Shown piece by piece: positions 9 through 10,591 of a stretch of 64,000 nt of DNA. Location: contig CP108521.1 in the NCBI GenBank assembly GCA_035999765.1, positions 5,456,001-5,520,000 of the forward strand, written 5' to 3'. This DNA is from Streptomyces sp. NBC_01231 (GTDB taxonomy: Bacteria; Actinomycetota; Actinomycetes; Streptomycetales; Streptomycetaceae). The notes beneath the pieces are model-generated. The model saw nothing but the letters and a program-made list of their open reading frames with translations. It did no database searches and was not told the origin of the DNA. Position 1 is the stretch's first letter, and each line of letters opens with the position of its first letter. The translations under genes were made by a program, and so were the position numbers.

Positions 9-2372
9 ATGGAGACGACACGCAACTGGCTGCTCCCCGCGCTGCTCGCGACCGGACAGATCGCCTGGCTGTGGCCCGGAGCCGGCTTGGCCGGCGCGGA
101 CGTGCCCGGGGCGACGGCACTCGTCGCCGTGCTGGGCGCGGTGGTCGCGGAGACGGCCGCGCTGGGCCGTCGACGGCAGGCGCCGGTCCGGGCCCTGGTC
201 TGGTCCCTATGCGCTCTCCTGCTGGGCCAGGTGGCCTGGCAGGACGGCCACTTCGGGGTGGGTACGCCGGTCGCGCTGTATTCGGTCGCGGTCCGCTGCC
301 CCGTGTCCGTGACCGTACGCGCGGTCGCCGCGGCCGTGGCTGTCGAGTGGCTCCTGTCCCTCATCCACGTCGGGGTCCGACCCTCGCTCGCCTCGGAGTG
401 GGCGCTCGGCGCGCTCCTGTACGTCGTCTGCGCGGGGCTCGGTGAGGCCCGACGGCAGTGGCTCAAGGGGCGCTCGCTCGCGGCCCGTCGGCTGGTCGGC
501 GCGGAGCAGGCCCGGCGGCGGGCGGGCGACACCGAACGGCAGCGTCTGGCCCGCGAACTCCACGACGTGAGCGCCCATCACCTGACGTCTGTCGTCATCA
601 CGGCCGACGCCGCACGACGACTCGCCGCCCGCAGGCCCGAGTTGACGGCCGAGGCGCTGTCGTTCGCCGAACGCACCGGCACCAAGACCCTGACGGCGTT
701 GCAACGGCTCGTCGGACTGCTGCGCGACGTCGACCATCCGGATCCACGTCCGATGACCGCGCGCATCGAGGAACTCATTGCCGGATTCGGCCGGTTGGGG
801 CGTCCGATCGATGCCGTGCTCCCCGGCGACCTGGCCGGTCCGGCGGCCGAGGCGGTCCACGGGATCGTCCGTGAGGCCCTGACGAACGCCCTGCGGCACG
901 CCCCGGGTTCCGCCGCGCACGTCAGCGTCCTGCGCGGGGAGGGTGTCCTGGAACTGACCGTCGACAACGCTCCCCCGCGCGGCTCGGCACCGGACGGCGT
1001 CGACGGACTGGGGTCGGGACGTGGCGTCGCGGGGATGAAGGAGCGGGCCGCGGCCGTCGGTGGGGAACTGACGGCCGGGCCCGCCCCCGACGGTGGCTGG
1101 CGGGTCCGGGCCACGCTGCCGGACGTCACAGGACCGTGGGGTCCGCCCGAGGGCGCGGGCCGGCGCGGCGTCCTGCGGGAACAGCGGCTGGTCGACCCCG
1201 CGCTGGTGTTCGCGGCCACGCTCCTTCCCCTGGTGTTCGCCCTGGTCACCGTCGAGGAGTGGACAGGCGCGAGCCTGCGCGCCGCGGTGCCCGGCCTGCT
1301 CGTCGTGGCCGCGCTGCTGACCGCTCACGCGGTGCCGCTGCTGTGGCGGCGGCGTGCCCCGTGGGCGGCGTTCCTCGGCGTGCTGGCCACGTCGTGGTTG
1401 TGGCCGGCGGCGGTCGCCGGGGCCGAGCTGCCGTCGCGGGTGTCCGAGTTCTTCGCCGGCGGAGCGCTCGTTGAGCTGCTGGCGGTCTACGCGGTGGCGG
1501 TCTACGGCCGGGGAGCCGCCCGTACCTGGCCCGCGTGGTGTGCTGCGGCGGTCTCGCTCTCCGGGACCCTTGTCGCGACGGCGGGCGCGGACGGCGAGTT
1601 GTCGGGCGAGGGCTCGATGGGGCCCACCGCCGTGGTGATGTCCGTGGCGTTGGCCGTGGTGCTGGCGGTCGTGTTCGCCGGCCTGTGGGGTGCCGGGCTC
1701 GCCGTGCGGCGCCGCCGGCTGCGGATCCTGGCCTGGGACGACTTCGCGCTGGCCGGCGCGCTGTGGCACGCGGAACGGGCCGCGGACGCCGAACGGGGCC
1801 GGTTGGCGACGAAGGTGCGCGATGCCGTCCTGAACCCCACGGCGGCACTGGTCGAACAGGCCCGGCAGGGGCGGTTGGACGAGGTGGCCGCCGGGGCCCG
1901 GTCGGCCCTCGCAGCCATGCGCGAAGTCCTGCACAGCCTGGGCGAGTCGGAGGATGACGGGCAGGGGCTCGCTCCGGCGCCCACCCTCGCGGACCTCGAC
2001 ACGCTGTGCCGGACCGTGCACGCGGCCGGGCGCGACGTGAAGCTGCGGGGCCTGCCGGAGGCCGCGCGGGAACTGCCGCCCGCCGTGGCCCTGTCGACGT
2101 ACCGCATCGTCGAGGCGGCGCTCGGCGCGGGTGATCAAGGGCCGGTGCGGGTCACGCTGAGGCGACGGCGGGACGCCCTGCGCGTCACGGTGTCGGGCGT
2201 ACCGCTGGCCGTGACCGGACCGGTGGCCGAACGCCTGAAGGTGCAGGTGGGGACCAGGACGACAGGGATCGGCCGTATCACTCTCGAACAGGCCGGTATC
2301 GTACGGGCGTTGCTGTCGATCCGGCCGAGTCCGGCGCCCGTCCAGGAGGTGTCCCCGTCGTCACACGCGTGA
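9..2372 (+). CDS. Sensor histidine kinase with a degenerate second kinase half
   Basis: Membrane histidine kinase of the HisKA_3/NarL type, about 787 aa, expected to phosphorylate the response regulator that follows. The first half has several membrane segments (about residues 10-145), then a dimerization helix with the phospho-acceptor motif RELHDVSAHH (His185) and an HATPase domain with N-box REALTNALRH near residue 280. A second half repeats the plan: hydrophobic segments at about 395-560, then a helix ATKVRDAVLNP where the acceptor His is lost, and a poorly conserved ATPase-like tail. Family kinases usually have one such unit, so this is a tandem fusion with a probably regulatory second half. 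The frame is open to the window edge, so the true start could lie upstream. It overlaps the next gene by 4 bp. Confidence 0.88.
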   Translation: METTRNWLLPALLATGQIAWLWPGAGLAGADVPGATALVAVLGAVVAETAALGRRRQAPVRALVWSLCALLLGQVAWQDGHFGVGTPVALYSVAVRCPVSVTVRAVAAAVAVEWLLSLIHVGVRPSLASEWALGALLYVVCAGLGEARRQWLKGRSLAARRLVGAEQARRRAGDTERQRLARELHDVSAHHLTSVVITADAARRLAARRPELTAEALSFAERTGTKTLTALQRLVGLLRDVDHPDPRPMTARIEELIAGFGRLGRPIDAVLPGDLAGPAAEAVHGIVREALTNALRHAPGSAAHVSVLRGEGVLELTVDNAPPRGSAPDGVDGLGSGRGVAGMKERAAAVGGELTAGPAPDGGWRVRATLPDVTGPWGPPEGAGRRGVLREQRLVDPALVFAATLLPLVFALVTVEEWTGASLRAAVPGLLVVAALLTAHAVPLLWRRRAPWAAFLGVLATSWLWPAAVAGAELPSRVSEFFAGGALVELLAVYAVAVYGRGAARTWPAWCAAAVSLSGTLVATAGADGELSGEGSMGPTAVVMSVALAVVLAVVFAGLWGAGLAVRRRRLRILAWDDFALAGALWHAERAADAERGRLATKVRDAVLNPTAALVEQARQGRLDEVAAGARSALAAMREVLHSLGESEDDGQGLAPAPTLADLDTLCRTVHAAGRDVKLRGLPEAARELPPAVALSTYRIVEAALGAGDQGPVRVTLRRRRDALRVTVSGVPLAVTGPVAERLKVQVGTRTTGIGRITLEQAGIVRALLSIRPSPAPVQEVSPSSHA

Positions 2373-3022
2373 TGGTCGTCGACGATCAGGCGGTGGTTCG
2401 CGCCGGATTCGTGGCCATCGTGGACGCCGAACCCGATCTGACGGTGGTCGCCGAGGCTGGTGACGGGGGTTCGGCGGTGTCGCTCGCCGCCACCGAGGCG
2501 CCCGACCTCGTCCTGATGGACATCCGCATGCCCGGCATGGACGGGCTCACCGCGACCCGTCTCATCACCGCGCAGGAGCGCCGGCCGCGAGTCCTCGTCC
2601 TGACCACGTTCGACCTCGACGCCTACGTGTACGAGGCGTTGTGCGCCGGGGCCTCGGGGTTCCTGCTCAAGGACGCCCTGCCCGAGGACCTGCTGTCCGC
2701 GATCCGCGTGGTCGCCACCGGAGAGGCCATCCTGGCCCCTACCGTGACCCGCCGGCTCATCGACACCTTCGCGCAGGGCGCCCCGCGGCCGCCGTCCGTG
2801 ACGGGTGCGCTGTCCTCCCTCACACCGCGCGAGAGGGAGGTGCTGCTGCACATCGCCTCGGGTCTGACGAACGCCGAGATCGGGTCCGCGCTCGGAGTGA
2901 CCACGGGCACCGTGAAGACCCACGTGAACGCCCTGCTGTCCAAGCTGGGCCTGCGGGACCGGGTGCAGGCCACGATCCTGGCGTACGAGAGCGGGCTGGT
3001 CAGGCCGAGCGGAACGGCCTGA
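2369..3022 (+). CDS. LuxR/NarL-family response regulator
   Basis: Two-component DNA-binding response regulator, 217 aa. The receiver domain has an acidic pair near the N-terminus, phospho-acceptor Asp51 in MDIRMPGMDG, Thr80 and Lys101 (FLLKDA). A LuxR-type helix-turn-helix follows at about residues 145-205 (LTPREREVLLHIASGLTNAEI). The GTG start at 2369 overlaps the kinase stop; an ATG one codon later is equally possible. A purine-rich AGGAGG lies near 2345, somewhat far from the start, so translational coupling is likely. Target genes cannot be read from the sequence. Confidence 0.93.
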   Translation: MMVVDDQAVVRAGFVAIVDAEPDLTVVAEAGDGGSAVSLAATEAPDLVLMDIRMPGMDGLTATRLITAQERRPRVLVLTTFDLDAYVYEALCAGASGFLLKDALPEDLLSAIRVVATGEAILAPTVTRRLIDTFAQGAPRPPSVTGALSSLTPREREVLLHIASGLTNAEIGSALGVTTGTVKTHVNALLSKLGLRDRVQATILAYESGLVRPSGTA

Positions 3023-3322: not shown

Positions 3323-4132
3323 TCAGTGGTCGTCGGTGATGGTGGTCGCGATGCCGTTGCTGATCTCGACCTCGGCGGAGAAGCCCTTCTTGGCGGCCGC
3401 CTCCAGTTGGGCCTCGGTGCACTCGACGCCGCCCTCGCCGCCCGGCCCGGTGTTCACGGCATCGCAGATGTCGTCGTAGCCCATGATCTTGGTGTCATCG
3501 GCAACGAGGAACTGCTGCTCGGTGCCCTTCATGTCGGAGACGGTGTACTTGCCCGGCGCCAGGTAGGAGACGTTGCCGAACCAGGTTCCGTCGACGCCCT
3601 TGCCCTTGTTGATGCCCTCGACGACGGTCTCGCGGGAGTCGGAACCACTGCCGGAACCGGAGCCGGTGCCCTGCTGGGTGGCACGTCGCTCGGTCACCAG
3701 GGTCGCGACGCCGTTCTTCATCTCCACGTCGGCGTTGACGGCACCCTTCTTGACGGCCGACTCCAGCTGGTCCACCGTGCACGGCGCGTCCACCTTGGAC
3801 CCCGCCTCACCGCATATCGTGCCGACGCCGTAGACCTCGGTGTCGTCGGCGACCCAGAACTGCTGGTCCTCCTTGCCCGGTACGGACACGATGTACTTGC
3901 CCGGGGCGAGGTAGGTGACCTTGCCGTTCTTGAACGAGCCGCTGACGCCCTTGGAGCTCTTGGAGTCCTTGGAGCTGGACGCCTTCTCCGCGGCCGCCAC
4001 CGGGCTCGCCTTGTCCGCCGGGCTCTTGCCGGACGAGCTGTCGGCGGTGCCGTTCTGGCAGGCCGTCAGCAGCAGTCCGGCGGTGATCGCGGCGGTGGCG
4101 AGGACGGCCTTGCGCAGGTGGCGGTTCTTCAC
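3323..4132 (-). CDS. Secreted lipoprotein with an internally duplicated domain
   Basis: Predicted lipoprotein of 269 aa with no recognised function. The GTG start at 4132 was chosen because GGAAGGA lies about 7 nt upstream and it places a basic N-terminus directly before the hydrophobic signal and lipobox LLLTAC. After a Ser/Lys/Ala-rich linker, the mature protein holds two copies of one domain of about 70-80 residues. Each has a [F/W]xxGxVxYLAPGKYxVS segment, a VADDT segment, a pair of cysteines, and a C-terminal [A/V]xVExxNGxAT strand. The copies are joined by a Gly/Ser linker. The paired cysteines probably form one disulfide per domain outside the cell. Surface binding or sensing is possible but not shown. 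Confidence 0.85.
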   Translation of the reverse strand: MKNRHLRKAVLATAAITAGLLLTACQNGTADSSSGKSPADKASPVAAAEKASSSKDSKSSKGVSGSFKNGKVTYLAPGKYIVSVPGKEDQQFWVADDTEVYGVGTICGEAGSKVDAPCTVDQLESAVKKGAVNADVEMKNGVATLVTERRATQQGTGSGSGSGSDSRETVVEGINKGKGVDGTWFGNVSYLAPGKYTVSDMKGTEQQFLVADDTKIMGYDDICDAVNTGPGGEGGVECTEAQLEAAAKKGFSAEVEISNGIATTITDDH

Positions 4133-4768
4133 GGGAGGTTCCTTCCGAGGTGGGGAGTAGCAAGGAGCCGGCGGCATCTCCGCCGCTCCCCGCTCTGTGA
4201 TCACTATGAGGTCTCCCCGTGCCCGGAGGTCACGCCCGTCTTCCCTTCAGAACACCGCCGTGGCACAGCCGTGACACAGCAACACATCGGCTGCGGAAGC
4301 CAGTTGATCGAACTCACCGTGCGGTGCGCCCGGGTATCGGAAGGGGACGCGCTCGGGTCGTGGCCCGGATGCCACCTCGACGCAAGCGCGCACGGACGAG
4401 CTCGCGTGCGCCATCGGCAACCGCTCCCACTGCACCATCACCAGCACCGAAGCGCGCGCTCCTTGTAGGGCTGAGGAGTCGGCGCGCAGCGCGTCCTCGG
4501 CAGCGTTGTATTCGCCGTTCTCGCATCTTCCCCGCCCCGGTCGGCTGGCGAGACCGCCACCATCAAGGCCTAGGATTTCCGCATTCCGTGGGCGGAATCG
4601 TTGATTCGGCTGCGTTCCCCTTTCCCTTCCGTCCCTGGCGGAACTATGGTCCCCGTAAGGGAAAGTCGAGCAAGCCGGAAAACCGTCAAGCAGCGTGACC
4701 GGTTATTTTAGGACTTTACTGTCCGGAGAAACCGCGTAATCGTTTCTCCGTATCTACGATCGCAAGCT
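4133..4768. other. Long leader/intergenic region before the flavoprotein gene
   Basis: About 640 bp separating two divergently oriented genes. No frame has convincing codon bias; short open frames on both strands look accidental. The last 150 bp are distinctly less GC-rich than their surroundings, which suits a promoter region, and end in the 9-bp inverted repeat listed separately. Confidence 0.55.
4724..4750 (+). promoter_or_regulatory. Perfect 9-bp inverted repeat upstream of the oxidase gene
   Basis: CGGAGAAAC at 4724-4732 is repeated in inverse at 4742-4750 (GTTTCTCCG) with a 9-nt spacer, ending 18 nt before the ATG at 4769. It could be a dimeric repressor operator or an mRNA hairpin. 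No Shine-Dalgarno sequence lies between it and the start codon, so it may control translation. Confidence 0.6.
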
Positions 4769-6823
4769 ATGACCGACATTTCACGGGACAACTCCGCCAC
4801 CCGTGCACGCTGGCAGACGTGTCTCAGGCTCGCCCGCGAACTCCTCCTCGTCGGGCGGGACAACAAAGACCTCAAGCTCGGCTATCTCCACACTCTGATA
4901 GACACGGGCCGCCTCGGCCCCACTCACCATCCGCGCAAAAAGATCCTCATCATCGGCGCCGGCATCACCGGCCTCGTCACCGGCCGATTACTCAAGGACG
5001 CCGGCCACGACGTCACCGTCCTGGAGGCCAACGCCAGCCGCGTCGGAGGACGAATCAAAACCTTCCGCGCCACCAAGCATCACCAGCCCTTCGACGACCC
5101 CGCGCAGTACGCCGAGGCCGGCGCCATGCGGCTGCCCGACTTCCACCCGCTCGTCCTCGCCCTCGTGGACAAACTCGGGCTCGGCCGACGCCAGTTCTAC
5201 AACGTGGACGTCGACCCCTCCACCGGCAGCGGCCCCGACGTCCCCGTCCCCCCGGTGACGTACACCTCCTTCACCGGCCGGACATGGACGTTCGGCGACG
5301 ACAGCCCCGACTTCCGCGAACCCGACAAGCGCGGCAACGCCTGGGTCCGCGCCAACCGCGTCCAGGTGCGGCGTGCCGACTACAACGCCGGTCCCGAACG
5401 AGTCAACGAGGGCTTTCACCTCACCGACGACGAGGTCCGTGCCCCCGTCGTGAAGATGGTCGACGACGCGCTGGAGGCCGTACGCGACTACTACTCCGAC
5501 ATCGTCGACGGGAAGCGCGTCAACAAGCCGGTCGACGAGTGGGTCGAGGGCTGGGCCCGGGTGATCCGCGACTTCGACGGCTACTCGATGGGGGGCTTCC
5601 TGCGTGACCACGCAGGGCTCAGCGACGAGGCGATCGAGGCCGTCGGGACCCTCGAGAACATGTCCTCACGGCTGCACCTCTCCTTCTTCCACAGCTTCCT
5701 GAGCCGCAGCGACATCAACCCCACCGTCCGCTACTGGGAGATACCCGGCGGCAGCTGGCGCCTGCCGCACGCCCTCCACCAGGGCCTGCGCGAGGAGGTG
5801 CGGCTCGGCCACCGCATGATCCGCCTCGAGTACCACGACCCCAGCCGCGACGCCGACCCCGAGGGCACCGGCGCCGTCGGGCCCGACGGCTGGGGCGTGG
5901 CCGTGCAGACCGTCGCCGAGAACGATCCACAGGCCCCGCCGCGCCTGTGGACGGCGGACCTGGCGATCGTCACCATCCCGTTCTCCGCCCTGCGCTTCGT
6001 GGAGATCGTCCCGTCGATGTCGTACAAGAAGCGCCGCGCCATCATCGAGACCCACTACGACCAGGCCACCAAGGTGCTGCTGGAGTTCAGCCACCGGTGG
6101 TGGGAGTTCACCGAGGACGACTGGCGCGAGGAGCTGGACCGCATCTCGCCGGGGCTGTACGAGCACTACCGGCAGGGCGCCGACGCCGACACCGGTCTGA
6201 CGATCGTCACATCGGACACCGGGCCCGCCCTCACGTTCGCCGGCCTGCTCGGGGCCGCCGTCAAGGACAGCGGCGTCACCGAGGAGATGCGGCAGCTCAA
6301 CGGCACCCTGCTGCTGCGCGGCCCCGCCGTCCGCCCCGCCACCCACTGCTTCGGAGGGGGCTCGGCCACTGACAACCCCAACCGGTTCATGTACTACCCC
6401 TCGCACCGGGTCGAGGGCAGCGCCGGTGGCGTCGTCCTCGCCTCGTACAGCTGGTCCGACGACGCCGCGCGCTGGGACTCCATGCGCAGCGCGGAGCGCT
6501 ACGTCTACGCCCTGCGCAACCTCCAGGCCCTGCACGGCCGCCGTATCGAGGTGTTCTTCACCGGCCGGGGCGCCACCAAGAGCTGGGCCCGCGACCCGTA
6601 CGCCTTCGGCGAGGCCGCCATCTACACAGCGCACCAGATGACCAGCTTCCACCTGGACGTCTCCCGGCCCGAGGGTCCCGTGCACTTCGCCGGAGAGCAC
6701 ACCTCCCTCAAGCACGCCTGGATCGAGGGCGCCCTGGAGAGCGCCGTCCGCGCCGCGCTCGCCGTCCACCAGGCCCCGCCGGTCACCGTCCCGGGCCCGG
6801 ACCGGGAGGAGGAGAGCTCGTGA
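4769..6823 (+). CDS. FAD-dependent L-amino-acid/monoamine oxidase-like protein
   Basis: Flavoprotein amine oxidase, 684 aa. After an N-terminal helical stretch there is a Rossmann FAD motif IIGAGITG (about 61-68) ending in VLEA (Glu86), then the L-amino-acid-oxidase hallmark AEAGAMRLP. The C-terminal FAD-contact segment reads HFAGEHTS. These features and the length resemble bacterial L-amino-acid oxidases such as Streptomyces L-glutamate oxidase, though no secretion signal is visible. The expected reaction is oxidative deamination of an amino acid to a 2-keto acid with release of hydrogen peroxide and ammonia; the substrate cannot be read. The stop overlaps the next start (GTGA at 6820-6823), so the keto acid probably feeds the downstream decarboxylase. 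Confidence 0.85.
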
Positions 6824-8676
6824 CCGCGATCACCCGCGAGTGCACGGTCGCCCGCTATCTCGCCCTGCGGCTGGCCGAGTTGGGCATCACGCACCTGTTC
6901 GGCGTCCCCGGCAACCACCTCGGCCCGTTCCTGACCACCCTGCGGGCCGAGGGTGACATCGAGTGGGTCGGGACCCCCACCGAGGGCGGCGCCGGCCAGG
7001 CCGCCGACGCCTACGCCCGCATCCACGGCATCGGCGCGGCCGCCGTCACGTACAGCGTCGGCGCGTTCAACCTGCTGGGCGCCTGCGGCGGCGCCAACGT
7101 CGAGCAGGTCCCGCTGGTCGCCGTCAACGCCTCCCCGCCCTACGAGCAGTGGCAGAACTACCGCGCCCTCGGCCTGCTCACCTCCCACATGAGCCTTCGC
7201 CCGGAGAGCAACCTGGACGCCTACCGGCAGGTCACCGTGGACGCCCAGGTCATCTCCAACCCGGGCCTGGCCCCCGGCCAGATCGACGCCGCGCTCACCG
7301 CGTGCCTGACCGAGCGCAGGCCGGTCTATCTGGAGGTCATGGAGGACCTGTGGGACGAGCCCTGTCCCGAGCCCGAGGAGCCGATCCGCCGCCGTGAGCG
7401 GCCGTTCAGCGCGCGCAACCAGGCCATGCTGGACGACGCCGTGAACGCTCTCCTCACCCTGATCGAGGAGCACCCCGGCCCGGACGGCAGGCCCCGCCCG
7501 ATCGTGTGGGCCGGTGAGGAGATCGACCGGTTCGGCCTCGGCGGGCAGCTCACCGACCTGGTGGAGGGCACCGGAGTGCCGTTCTGCACCACCGTCGGCG
7601 CCAAGGCCGTCGTGGACGAGGATCTGCCGCAGTTCCACGGCGTCTACAACGGCCACGCCAGCCACCCGGACGTGCACTGGATCTTCAAGGACTGGGCCAC
7701 CTGCCGGATCGGGCTCGGCGCCTGGTCCACGTCGAAGAACCTCGGCGGCGAGCAGTGCGTCGGCAGCGACTGGGTGATGGCCGCGAAGGGCGGCGTCAGC
7801 GTCGGCACCTCCTACTTCCCCGACGTCCAGCTCGAACAGCTGCTGCCCGCCCTCCAGGACGCGCTGGTGAAGGCCTACGGCTCCGGGGGCCTGGCCGCCG
7901 ACTACTACGCCGAGGCCCACGCCCACCACGGGGCGCCCGACCACCGCCCCGCGGGCCTCCAGGACCACCGCGCCTCCCTCCGCACCGGAGGCGCGCGGTC
8001 CCGGGCCGCCGAACGGCTCACCTACGACGGCGTGTTCGATCGGATCAACCACTTCCTGGGCCACGAGACCCGGCAGAACTGGACGGTCGTCTCCGACGCC
8101 GCGTTCTCCCTCATCGGCTCGATGAACCTGTCCCTGCCCGCGGGTGGGTTCCTGTCGCAGGTCAGCTGGCTGTCCATCGGCTGGTCGGTCGGCGCGGCCA
8201 CCGGCGCCGCGCTCGCCCCCGAGCGCGGGCACGCCCGCCCGATGGTGTTCGTCGGCGACGGCGCCTTCCAGGAGACCTGTCAGGAGATCTCCACCCACAC
8301 CAGGCTCGGACTGCGGTCGGTGGTGTTCGTCATGGACAACGGACACTTCTACGGCGTCGAGCAGATGCTGGTGCACCCGTCCTACTACGCCGAACGGGGT
8401 GCCGCCGGTGCCGCCGACTCGGACGGCGCGGACTTCTACAACGTCCTCCACCCGTGGCACTACGACCGCCTCGCGGCGGTCTTCGCCGGCAGGAAGACCC
8501 CGGCGAACGGGCTCGGCATCGCCGACACCTCCGACCTGGACGCCCTGCTGGCCCGCCTCACCGACCCGACCGACCCGGTCAACGCCGGACCGCTGCTGGT
8601 CCGCGTCCACCTGCACCGGCACGACTACCCGCGAGCGATGGCGTACAAGGTGCCGAAGTCCTCCGCGACGGCCTGA
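6820..8676 (+). CDS. Thiamine-diphosphate-dependent 2-keto-acid decarboxylase-like enzyme
   Basis: ThDP enzyme of the pyruvate/indolepyruvate decarboxylase-acetolactate synthase superfamily, 618 aa, somewhat longer than usual. The N-terminal domain holds the cofactor-activating glutamate in GTPTEGGAG (Glu55), followed by AADAYAR. The C-terminal domain has the ThDP/Mg motif VGDG (479-481) ending about 26 residues later in [10 protein letters not shown] (Asn507). A His/Gly/Ala-rich linker at about 365-400 appears to be an insertion. Coupled by overlap to the amino-acid oxidase, it probably converts the 2-keto acid to an aldehyde or carboligation product. The substrate is unknown. Confidence 0.82.
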
Positions 8677-8690
8677 CGGGCCGGAGCGTT

Positions 8691-8765
8691 CCGAACAATC
8701 CGAACAATCCGAGATCCGAGAGGCCCGAGGGAAACCGAGGGAAACCGAGGGAAACCCGAGGGAAA
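8691..8765 (+). repeat. Short tandem repeats between the decarboxylase and PixA genes
   Basis: Two tandem copies of CCGAACAAT (8691-8708) are followed by four copies of CCGAGGGAAA (8725-8765, one extra C between copies 3 and 4). They fill most of the gap before the AidA/PixA gene and could set spacing, RNA structure or protein binding. Confidence 0.85.
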
Positions 8766-8821
8766 AGGCGCGCTCCAAGGCGGCGCGTCTCAGGAATTCC
8801 CGTATTCGAAGGAGGCAGGAA

Positions 8822-9331
8822 ATGGCTGATCTCAATGTACTGATCGCGTTCGACGCGGCCACGATCGTCGAGCAGAATCCCAACGCGTCGAGGAACCCCG
8901 ACGCGCCGACGTACGTCGACCACCGCCTGATCTACATGACGACGCGCCAGGATCACATCGTCGGCACGTCGGGGGCGGAGTTGAACGTCCGTGCCGAACC
9001 CGGGGACAGCATCAGGTGGCGGGAGACGACGCTGTCGCTCAGCAGCGACTACAAGGCACTGCTGTACAAGTACGTGAGCAGCGACAGCCAGCACGTGCTC
9101 ATCAGGACGCCGGAGATCGAGGTGATCGACGGCATCTATCCGATGCCGAAGGAGGGGAGCGAGGGCAGGCCGGAATTCGTGACGCAGAACTACCAGGATC
9201 ATTACTGGCGGACGACCGTCAGGAGGGTCGGTAAGGTCACGTACCACTTCTCCTTCCAGATCCTGGACCGCCATCGGCAACTGAAGGGGTACTTCCAATG
9301 GGACCCCTTCATCACCATCGAAAATCCCTGA
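8822..9331 (+). CDS. AidA/PixA family inclusion-body protein
   Basis: 169-aa protein of the AidA/PixA family, recognised from the start MADLNVLIAFDAATI, the YVDHRLIYMTTRQD block, GDSIRWRETTLSL, and the C-terminal FSFQILDRHRQLKGYFQWDPFITI. Known members are PixA, the cytoplasmic inclusion-body protein of Xenorhabdus, and quorum-regulated AidA of Ralstonia and Burkholderia, linked to host interaction; their molecular role is unclear. No signal peptide or cysteine is visible. A strong ribosome binding site (AAGGAGG near 8810) precedes the ATG, so it can be translated more strongly than the two enzymes upstream. The 145-bp repeat-filled gap leaves open a separate promoter. A hairpin terminator follows. 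Confidence 0.85.
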   Translation: MADLNVLIAFDAATIVEQNPNASRNPDAPTYVDHRLIYMTTRQDHIVGTSGAELNVRAEPGDSIRWRETTLSLSSDYKALLYKYVSSDSQHVLIRTPEIEVIDGIYPMPKEGSEGRPEFVTQNYQDHYWRTTVRRVGKVTYHFSFQILDRHRQLKGYFQWDPFITIENP

Positions 9332-9342
9332 CGGCCCAGTGA

Positions 9343-9369
9343 GGGCGGCGGCCGGCAGGGCCGCCGCCC
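9343..9369 (+). terminator. Terminator hairpin after the PixA gene
   Basis: GGGCGGCGGCC (9343-9353) pairs perfectly with GGCCGCCGCCC (9359-9369) across a 5-nt loop, 12 nt after the stop codon. There is no T-tract, as is common in Streptomyces. It marks the 3' end of the cluster. Confidence 0.75.
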
Positions 9370-9486
9370 CCACCCGCACAAGCGCGGGAGTGGTGCAGAC
9401 AGGAATCCCGATCGAGGTGCGCACATCGGAAGTGGGCGGATACATCAATCCGGTACGGCTCGGGTACCGGATCCGCCCCGTGATCA

Positions 9487-9780
9487 TTGTCGCCCCAACC
9501 GCTGGCTCAAGACGTCGGCTTGGAGCGCCTGGCCGACGCCGAACTGGAGCGTGGGTACGCCTTCGAGGCCGTTCTCCTCATGGGAGACGCCGAGACCATC
9601 TCCGCAGCAAGGACACTGCAACGCCACGCGTGGGTCCTGGAGCAGTTCGTTCGTGACATGCGCTCCGGTACGACGGAAGACTGGACGCGGGCGTTCAGAC
9701 AGTTTCAGGAGAAGCGCGACGAGTACTACGTCGCTGCGCGCGAGAGCCTGGGCGTGTCCGCAGCATTTCGGCTGCGCGCC
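9487..9780 (+). pseudogene. Fragment of an unidentified coding sequence
   Basis: An open frame beginning near 9487 keeps protein-like composition up to about 9780 (segments LERLADAELERGYAFEAVLLMG, QRHAWVLEQFVRDM, FQEKRDEYYVAARESLG). It then runs into arginine/proline-rich, non-coding-like sequence before the stop at 9996. Both the missing start context and the loss of coding character suggest the middle of a decayed gene. No family recognised. Confidence 0.4.
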
Positions 9781-10233
9781 GAAGACCCGGTCACCCTTGG
9801 TCAAGACCCCCGCCGGCTACAGCCCACCCGGGGCGCAGCGCGGATGGCTCCGGCTGCACGGGCACTCCAGCCAACGACAGACATGATCGCCCACACGCTT
9901 TCCAACTGTGTTGGTGGGGTCGTGAGCTGCGTGCGGGGGCGTTCACCTGCGTTCATGGGCGGCTCCCGTGAGGCGAACTCGGCGTGCGGTCTTTGATGAA
10001 CGGCCGTGAACGGCGCTGAACGAAACGGAAACTGAGACGGGGTCCGGGCCGCGCTGAGCTGCGTCGAAGGCTGGGTTCCTCTCGCAGGGGCACGCCCTGG
10101 AGTGGTGCTCAGGGGTGCTGCTGAGCAGTTGGCGGTCGCGTCGCAGTGCTGATCTCCGTTCGGGGGCGAGACGTCCAGCGGCCCCCGCTTCCCGGAGCTC
10201 TCGGAGTCCGGTTCCGGGGCTGCCGGGTCCTCC

Positions 10234-10591
10234 GGCGGTGGCGCGGGCGAGGCGGTTGACCACAGGCCGGCCCGAAGCCTCCGTGCCGCCGTTCAGGTCA
10301 GGGGTGCGCATGCGTGGCGCCTTCGGGCTGCCCCCGTGCACGGCCACCTCGATGCTGTCCGGGTGCGCGGTCAGGTCCAGAGCGCAGGTGCGCCGCCACC
10401 GTGATGCAGGGCGTTGGCGACGAGCTCCGAACGACCAGGACCCCACGGTGGCGGCAGCCTCGACTGCAATCGCCGGTACGACATCTTGGAGGAAGTGCCG
10501 GGAGCTGTCGCGCGCCCGCGACGGATGTGGCGGAGCGGGCGGTTGCGACGTTGCCGCTCACCGTGTCCATCAGGTCACCCTGGTCTCTCAT
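10234..10591 (-). pseudogene. Broken RsbW-type ATP-binding (anti-sigma-like) protein gene
   Basis: Reading the minus strand in changing frames recovers pieces of one HATPase regulator of the type common in Streptomyces. GDLMDTVSGNVATARSA and HFLQDVVPAIAVEAAATV come first, then the N-box SELVANALHHGGG in a second frame. LDLTAHPDSIEVAVHGG and RMRTPDLNGG..GRPVVNRLARATA follow in the first frame again. At least two frameshifts separate them, so no functional product is expected. Confidence 0.7.

Follow-up and report, generated by a model that had tools for sequence, protein, structure and literature searches.

Organization of the locus

The 64,000-nucleotide stretch of Streptomyces sp. NBC_01231 analysed here (contig CP108521.1, positions 5,456,001 to 5,520,000; hereafter the window, whose own coordinates are used throughout) contains a row of three forward-strand genes. 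They encode an L-glutamate-oxidase-type flavoprotein (4769..6823; 684 amino acids, aa), a thiamine diphosphate (ThDP) enzyme of the pyruvate-decarboxylase superfamily (6820..8676; 618 aa, GTG start), and a beta-sandwich protein of the PixA/AidA family, here called PixA (8822..9331; 169 aa, ATG start). The stop of the oxidase gene and the GTG start of the ThDP gene overlap by 4 bp, and an AAGGAGG ribosome-binding site precedes the PixA ATG at 8822. The coordinates, the overlap, and Pfam matches of the oxidase (Amino_oxidase PF01593, 160 bits), the ThDP enzyme (TPP_enzyme_N/M/C, 84/37/49 bits), and PixA (PF12306, 163 bits; cut-off, 21) bear out the original prediction, made from the sequence of this stretch without database searches, that an amine-oxidase flavoprotein gene overlaps a ThDP decarboxylase gene and is followed by an AidA/PixA gene with a strong ribosome-binding site of its own. 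The terminator that it had placed after PixA stands in part: the region 9332-9380 folds with -34.7 kcal/mol (z -3.3 versus shuffles) into a GC-rich hairpin of ~27 nt (9343..9369, forward strand), the probable end of the operon, but the hairpin has no T run and a consensus terminator scan of 4000-10500 listed none.

Conservation of the gene order

The module was surveyed in 199 genomes of the genus, 296 of the phylum, 198 of the order of a Saprospiraceae metagenome-assembled genome (MAG), and 55 named loci. The same genome occurs twice among the survey rows as L045/L065, L048/L068, L049/L071, L052/L064, and L058/L099, and the counts of distinct members correct for these duplicates. Within the genus, the ThDP gene was found in 16 of the 199 genomes (9 at 85 to 100% identity, 6 at 61 to 62%, and one at 40%), an oxidase (63% identity or more) in 14, and PixA in 8. 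Each of the 14 oxidase genes immediately precedes the ThDP gene, and each of the 8 PixA genes immediately follows it. A further 53 genomes match the oxidase only through paralogues of 43 to 52% identity; one of them, G142, also carries a gutted copy of the module oxidase.

The 55 named loci were retrieved with the ThDP enzyme as the query and are hence blind to loci that have lost its gene. By ThDP enzyme identity they comprise 38 clade A loci (82 to 93%), 16 clade B loci (55 to 57%), and the Saprospiraceae MAG (L113, Bacteroidota; 47%), in which the oxidase and ThDP genes are also adjacent and the oxidase is 50% identical to that of the window. The 4-bp overlap is kept in 48 of the 51 named loci that have the oxidase. 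Behind the ThDP gene, PixA was matched in 37 of the 38 clade A loci and in none of the 17 others; in 34 of the 37 its reading frame spans 160 aa or more. The PixA start lies -8 bp from the ThDP stop in 11 loci, +4 bp from it in 8, and 16 to 135 bp from it in 18. Frame breaks in L086 (ThDP), L087 (oxidase and PixA), and L114 (ThDP and the peroxidase described below) are possibly assembly errors and were excluded from the loss counts.

The predicted clustering is thus real and conserved outside this strain, with 19 of the PixA genes starting at -8 or +4 bp. Chance neighbourhood was rejected because the adjacency recurs in dozens of other genomes. The genes flanking the operon mostly vary between lineages, so the conserved unit is these genes alone, and a larger biosynthetic cluster was rejected on the same grounds. 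The three genes almost certainly form a single operon, presumably read as one transcript.

Sequences upstream of the oxidase and PixA genes

Upstream of the oxidase gene, the alignment of 46 clade A rows (42 distinct) shows a conserved order of TTTTnGGACTTT, CGTTTC..TACGAT, 8 nt, and the ATG, from which few rows deviate. The motif TTTTAGGACTTT (4706..4717, forward strand) is a putative operator, and its core GGACTTT is exact except in L073, L076, L087, and L090; the L087 row had been cut in another register. TTTNNGGACTTT has 2 exact matches in the 11.3-Mb genome versus 3 for a reversed control, so the motif TTTTAGGACTTT/TTTNNGGACTTT is defined by its conservation and not by rarity. A regulon for TTTNNGGACTTT was rejected, as its second match falls in an unrelated part of the genome and the reversed control is commoner. 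The distance from the motif to the start codon is shifted by ~11 nt, one helical turn, in the himastatinicus/iranensis group.

TACGAT (4755..4760, forward strand), a putative -10 element 8 nt before the oxidase ATG, is exact in 42 of the 46 rows, the exceptions being L048 with its duplicate L068, L069, and L087. A sigma-70 scan found no promoter, the 145-bp gap before PixA included, and no Shine-Dalgarno sequence was seen before the oxidase ATG. The position of TACGAT and the missing Shine-Dalgarno sequence suggest that the oxidase mRNA is leaderless, and we infer that the conserved block combines an activator site with a leaderless promoter. The 145-bp gap contains four copies of the 10-bp tandem repeat CCGAGGGAAA (8725..8765, forward strand), identified by Tandem Repeats Finder.

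Relation of the oxidase to L-glutamate oxidase

In a phmmer search of the PDB, the best matches of the oxidase were the L-glutamate oxidases (LGOX) 7e0c, 8jpw, and 2e1m (residues 17-671 match 7e0c with 926 bits). The solved LGOX comes from Streptomyces sp. X-119-6, and its sequence was taken from the PDB alignment. This enzyme has 98.3% identity with the L053 oxidase, which is itself followed by a ThDP gene, and ~65% with the oxidases of the window clade. In a tree of 21 oxidases, the X-119-6 enzyme stands beside L053, nested inside the module clade, and five paralogues of ~50% identity are grouped apart from it. The placement of L113 is unsure, as its long branch meets that of the paralogues, about which the tree program issued a warning. 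By eye, the five paralogues start with twin-arginine-like signals; the module oxidases inspected do not, and the L053 oxidase has no obvious signal peptide.

Arg305, which recognises the glutamate side chain, is conserved without exception in the 61 module oxidase rows (57 distinct), and Arg124, His312, Tyr562, Trp564, and Trp653 are likewise invariant, including in the window oxidase. Position 305 is Arg in 2e1m and 8jpw and Glu in the 7e0c chain, which presumably represents an engineered variant. The predicted pairing of an oxidase and a ThDP enzyme that could turn an amino acid into an aldehyde with peroxide release is supported, and these residues narrow the amino acid, very probably, to L-glutamate. 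With only ~65% identity between the window clade and the assayed enzyme, the oxidase might have drifted to another amino acid, with the ThDP enzyme using the matching keto acid; the invariance of the active-site positions checked, Arg305 among them, makes this very unlikely. The window oxidase and X-119-6 LGOX thus share a clade and active-site residues; the literature, to judge from a 2015 review, treats the latter as an enzyme on its own and gives its physiological function as unknown (PMC4699246).

Active-site residues of the ThDP enzyme

Residues of the ThDP enzyme were assigned by a profile against the PDB and mapped on Zymomonas pyruvate decarboxylase for 65 distinct family members. The standard positions Asp28, Glu51, HH 114-115, and Glu477 correspond to Zymomonas residues 27, 50, 113-114, and 473, and positions 28, 51, and 477 to Asn32, Glu55, and Glu514 of the window enzyme. 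The three ThDP domains, the Glu51 equivalent (Glu55, in 70 of 70 rows), and the GDG...N motif (Asp480 and Asn507, each in 69 of 70) assign the protein to the pyruvate-decarboxylase type, and Glu514 is kept in 64 of the 65 members, with Gln only in the frame-broken L114. Two further marks of that type, the HH motif and Asp28, are missing from the window enzyme. The first His of the HH motif is Ser in 64 members and Thr in one, while the second is kept in all 65, and the Asp28 equivalent is Asn in 46, Asp in 18, and His in one. The family has marks of its own: an invariant Trp111 in a family-specific insertion (EQWxN) near the HH position, and an invariant Thr-Ser-Lys-Asn (TSKN) at 304-307.

Pyruvate, indolepyruvate, and branched-chain keto acid decarboxylases (5tma, 1ovm, and 2vbf) agree with the ThDP enzyme in the three domains, the Glu51 and Glu477 equivalents, and the second His, but the latter has Ser for the first His, Asn for Asp28, the EQWxN insertion, and the invariant TSKN. 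None of the NCBIfam models listed reached its cut-off (best score, 158.8 bits), and those for indolepyruvate decarboxylase were missed by far (158.8 versus 554.5 and 157.1 versus 946). As judged from these residues and scores, the ThDP enzyme is different from a standard decarboxylase. Positions 28 and 477 are described as affecting catalysis in ThDP decarboxylases, with 114/115 as the HH motif (PMC3534367).

The enzyme probably acts on 2-oxoglutarate; that an aldehyde is its main product is somewhat more doubtful. The reaction proposed here, a ThDP-dependent conversion of 2-oxoglutarate into succinic semialdehyde, is that of the cyanobacterial 2-oxoglutarate decarboxylase MaKGD; the 2-oxoglutarate contacts given for MaKGD are Gln254, Lys386, and Lys471, from docking (PMC10418658).

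More distant ThDP relatives, L118 (36% identity, 5790-9610) and L119 (33%, 5046-8463), sit directly behind amine oxidases of other kinds (7c4k/7og2 type in L118; Pfam Amino_oxidase, 77 bits, in L119). The pairing therefore recurs, and pairs of an oxidase with a ThDP enzyme seem to be a broader theme that is still unexplored. Relatives of ~34% identity in Rhizobium and Sinorhizobium (two records) and of 37% in G095 have neighbours of sugar-catabolism type, and a Synechocystis relative adjoins nuclease and toxin-antitoxin genes. All of these are without an oxidase, and we therefore think that they belong to other subfamilies. A Pseudoalteromonas record carries no annotation at the place in question.

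PixA

Both the Pfam gathering score and the fold place the third protein in PF12306, a family found in the class-wide sample in only 1 of 296 genomes, the source genome itself. The operon PixA is ~18 to 22% identical to the PixA/AidA/PixB inclusion proteins (PDB 4lzk and 4pib). PixA/AidA proteins are termed poorly understood, and the Burkholderia members are linked to quorum sensing and hosts (PMC9060813), whereas the operon PixA is linked to an enzyme operon.

A sister lineage with a DyP-type peroxidase

Clade B has no PixA; instead, a gene for a DyP-type peroxidase lies directly before the oxidase gene. The product of one representative (L097) matches DyP_N (50.8 bits, cut-off 27.5) and Dyp_perox_C (42.9 bits, cut-off 20), and the GxxDG motif of DyP peroxidases was seen by eye. 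Ten of the 16 named clade B loci have the gene, whether whole, split, or truncated at a contig end; among them are L107 and L108, in which the oxidase is missing and DyP is directly followed by the ThDP gene. DyP remnants, which parallel the gutted clade A oxidases described below, lie upstream of the oxidase in L099, L104, and L109 (by search) and in L098 and L103 (by eye); neither DyP nor a remnant was found in L101.

The cluster of DyP, LGOX, and ThDP genes occurs in Kitasatospora and Streptomyces, also on Streptomyces plasmids, and has the same oxidase/ThDP pair and 4-bp overlap as the window operon. It differs in having DyP upstream in place of PixA downstream and in a ThDP enzyme that retains Asp28. 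Asp occupies position 28 at every locus with a clade B DyP or a remnant, and in L101; Asn occupies it in clade A (except for His beside the frame break in L086) and in L053, L054, L113, and L056, the last having only a DyP of 28% identity. The association tracks the clades, yet the close relatives L053/L054 and L055/L057 differ in both traits.

Ten Streptomyces plasmid records contain the ThDP gene, and the two examined are both independently annotated, in cluster order, as Dyp-type peroxidase, FAD oxidoreductase, and TPP enzyme. In L132 and L133 the cluster lies on large linear Streptomyces plasmids, and the L132 copy adjoins IS3-type transposase genes. The DyP-oxidase-ThDP module may be mobile.

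Loss of the oxidase and constraint on the other genes

In four loci (L065, L076, L093, and L095) the oxidase has been gutted by large internal deletions. The native start-to-stop frame and the ThDP overlap are intact in all four, and PixA is intact in three and broken in L093. Between L065 and L095, which have common flanking genes and are possibly not independent, the ratio of nonsynonymous to synonymous substitution rates (dN/dS) is ~1.1 for the oxidase remnant (111 codons), 0.41 for the ThDP gene, and 0.02 for PixA (dN 0.003, dS 0.136); for the ThDP gene it is 0.27 to 0.48 in three pairs with an intact oxidase. The oxidase remnant of L065/L095 is neutral, the ThDP gene is mildly constrained, and PixA is strongly constrained. 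The simplest reading is that selection acts on translation reaching the ThDP start and that the ThDP enzyme and PixA are useful without the oxidase.

Neighbouring genes

A 787-aa protein encoded at 9-2372 (forward strand) has HisKA_3 and HATPase domains followed by a second sensor region (DUF7134), in which a second ATPase domain was not detected. It resembles two fused sensor kinases, and the gene for a LuxR-type response regulator (2369-3022) overlaps its own. A 293-aa lipoprotein-like protein (3323-4204, reverse strand) contains, by eye, two repeat copies around YLAPGKY and F.VADDT and had no Pfam match.

Proposed pathway and alternatives

On balance we lean slightly toward a translationally coupled operon for glutamate oxidation followed by a ThDP step, with PixA as an accessory. 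One conserved upstream promoter would drive all three coupled genes. A cytoplasmic L-glutamate oxidase, assigned by close homology to the assayed and solved enzyme, would convert L-glutamate, O2, and H2O into 2-oxoglutarate, NH3, and H2O2, and the ThDP enzyme, started from the overlapping codon, would decarboxylate 2-oxoglutarate, most simply to succinic semialdehyde and CO2. Its altered proton-relay residues would leave room for joining the bound intermediate to another molecule. PixA would be a cytoplasmic accessory of the ThDP step and perhaps form an assembly or inclusion that gathers or stores the enzyme, although an assembly role is a tentative suggestion and rather unlikely. In the sister lineage, the DyP peroxidase in the accessory place could consume the H2O2.

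Several observations weigh against this explanation. The module is rare: close relatives of the ThDP enzyme occur in 16 of the 199 genomes of the genus, 3 of the 296 of the phylum, and 2 of the 198 of the MAG's order (one of the last two a partial 41% match). Among the 55 named loci the oxidase is gutted in four and absent from the locus in four, and since all eight retain the ThDP gene, the ThDP enzyme does not depend on the oxidase everywhere. PixA was not found in the clade A loci G009 and L067 and is short, split, or mostly unmatched in L062, L087, L092, and L093; in this strain, the 145-bp gap could hold a separate PixA promoter. LGOX is described as extracellular (PMC4699246), which fits a cytoplasmic pathway badly. 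With the HH motif and, here, Asp28 missing, simple aldehyde release is possibly slow. The TSKN loop is no proof of 2-oxoglutarate binding, because L118, whose partner oxidase resembles an ancestral L-amino acid oxidase, has it too. An AlphaFold2 model of the ThDP enzyme from 11 sequences was too poor for use (predicted local distance difference test score, 66.8; active-site stretches, <50), so its residues are mapped by sequence only.

There is some chance, if not a large one, that PixA is functionally independent and merely cotranscribed, as a stationary-phase protein using the operon promoter. Its strong constraint where the oxidase is dead would fit this, as would the missing PixA match in G009 and L067, but PixA occurs in the genus survey only beside the ThDP gene, and the order is kept in 37 of 38 clade A loci with close or overlapping starts in 19 of 37.

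Less probable still is a carboligase, in which a 2-oxoglutarate-derived acyl anion would be added to another carbonyl compound to give a hydroxy-keto metabolite. The replaced His113 (Zymomonas numbering), the Asn at position 28 in most members, and the invariant Trp111 of the insertion close to the altered HH motif agree with such a role, and a 2016 paper reports that altering Asp28 and Glu477 made yeast pyruvate decarboxylase shift to carboligation (PMC4701669). Yet the Glu477 equivalent is almost universally kept, Asp28 is retained in 18 of the 65 members, including every locus with a clade B DyP, and the acceptor is not known. An extended form is similarly doubtful: a glutamate-fed pathway in which the relay-less ThDP enzyme (Asp28 to Asn, His114 to Ser) joins a 2-oxoglutarate fragment to another molecule with PixA as assembly partner, and in which the Asp28 lineage pairs both enzymes with the peroxide-using DyP.

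The original prediction had further suggested that a competitor or an animal host is the target of the product or the peroxide, PixA being a scaffold or storage partner; in such a reading PixA/AidA could also be an effector. Burkholderia AidA is required for virulence in Caenorhabditis elegans (PMC9060813), and the title of a review calls amino acid oxidases antimicrobial proteins in marine bacteria (PMC4699246). Nothing at this locus points there: signal peptides were not seen by eye in the three proteins, DyP stands in place of PixA in the sister lineage, and the oxidase is repeatedly lost with PixA mostly kept. We found no evidence for a competitor- or host-directed role, although the surroundings of the operon were not searched systematically for toxin or secretion genes, and we regard it as highly improbable. 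The only PADLOC match, a desaturase-like flavoprotein model over part of the oxidase, was read as generic; with none for the ThDP enzyme or PixA, anti-phage defence was rejected.

Implications

L-Glutamate oxidase is in standard use in biosensors and in production. A literature search, in which subscription journals were thinly covered, found no description of a system of this make-up, in agreement with the original prediction, and as far as the literature was searched, the conserved operon around this known enzyme is undescribed. The operon supplies L-glutamate oxidase with likely genomic partners and thereby makes its natural role directly testable, and the parts of the operon are separated genetically by recurrent oxidase losses that PixA has mostly survived. 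The strict tie of PixA to one enzyme operon is a new handle on the PixA/AidA proteins, which in the cited literature come from host-associated Gram-negative bacteria. If the extended form of the glutamate-fed pathway, with PixA as assembly partner, is true, the industrial glutamate oxidase would gain its first physiological pathway and the PixA proteins a metabolic role.

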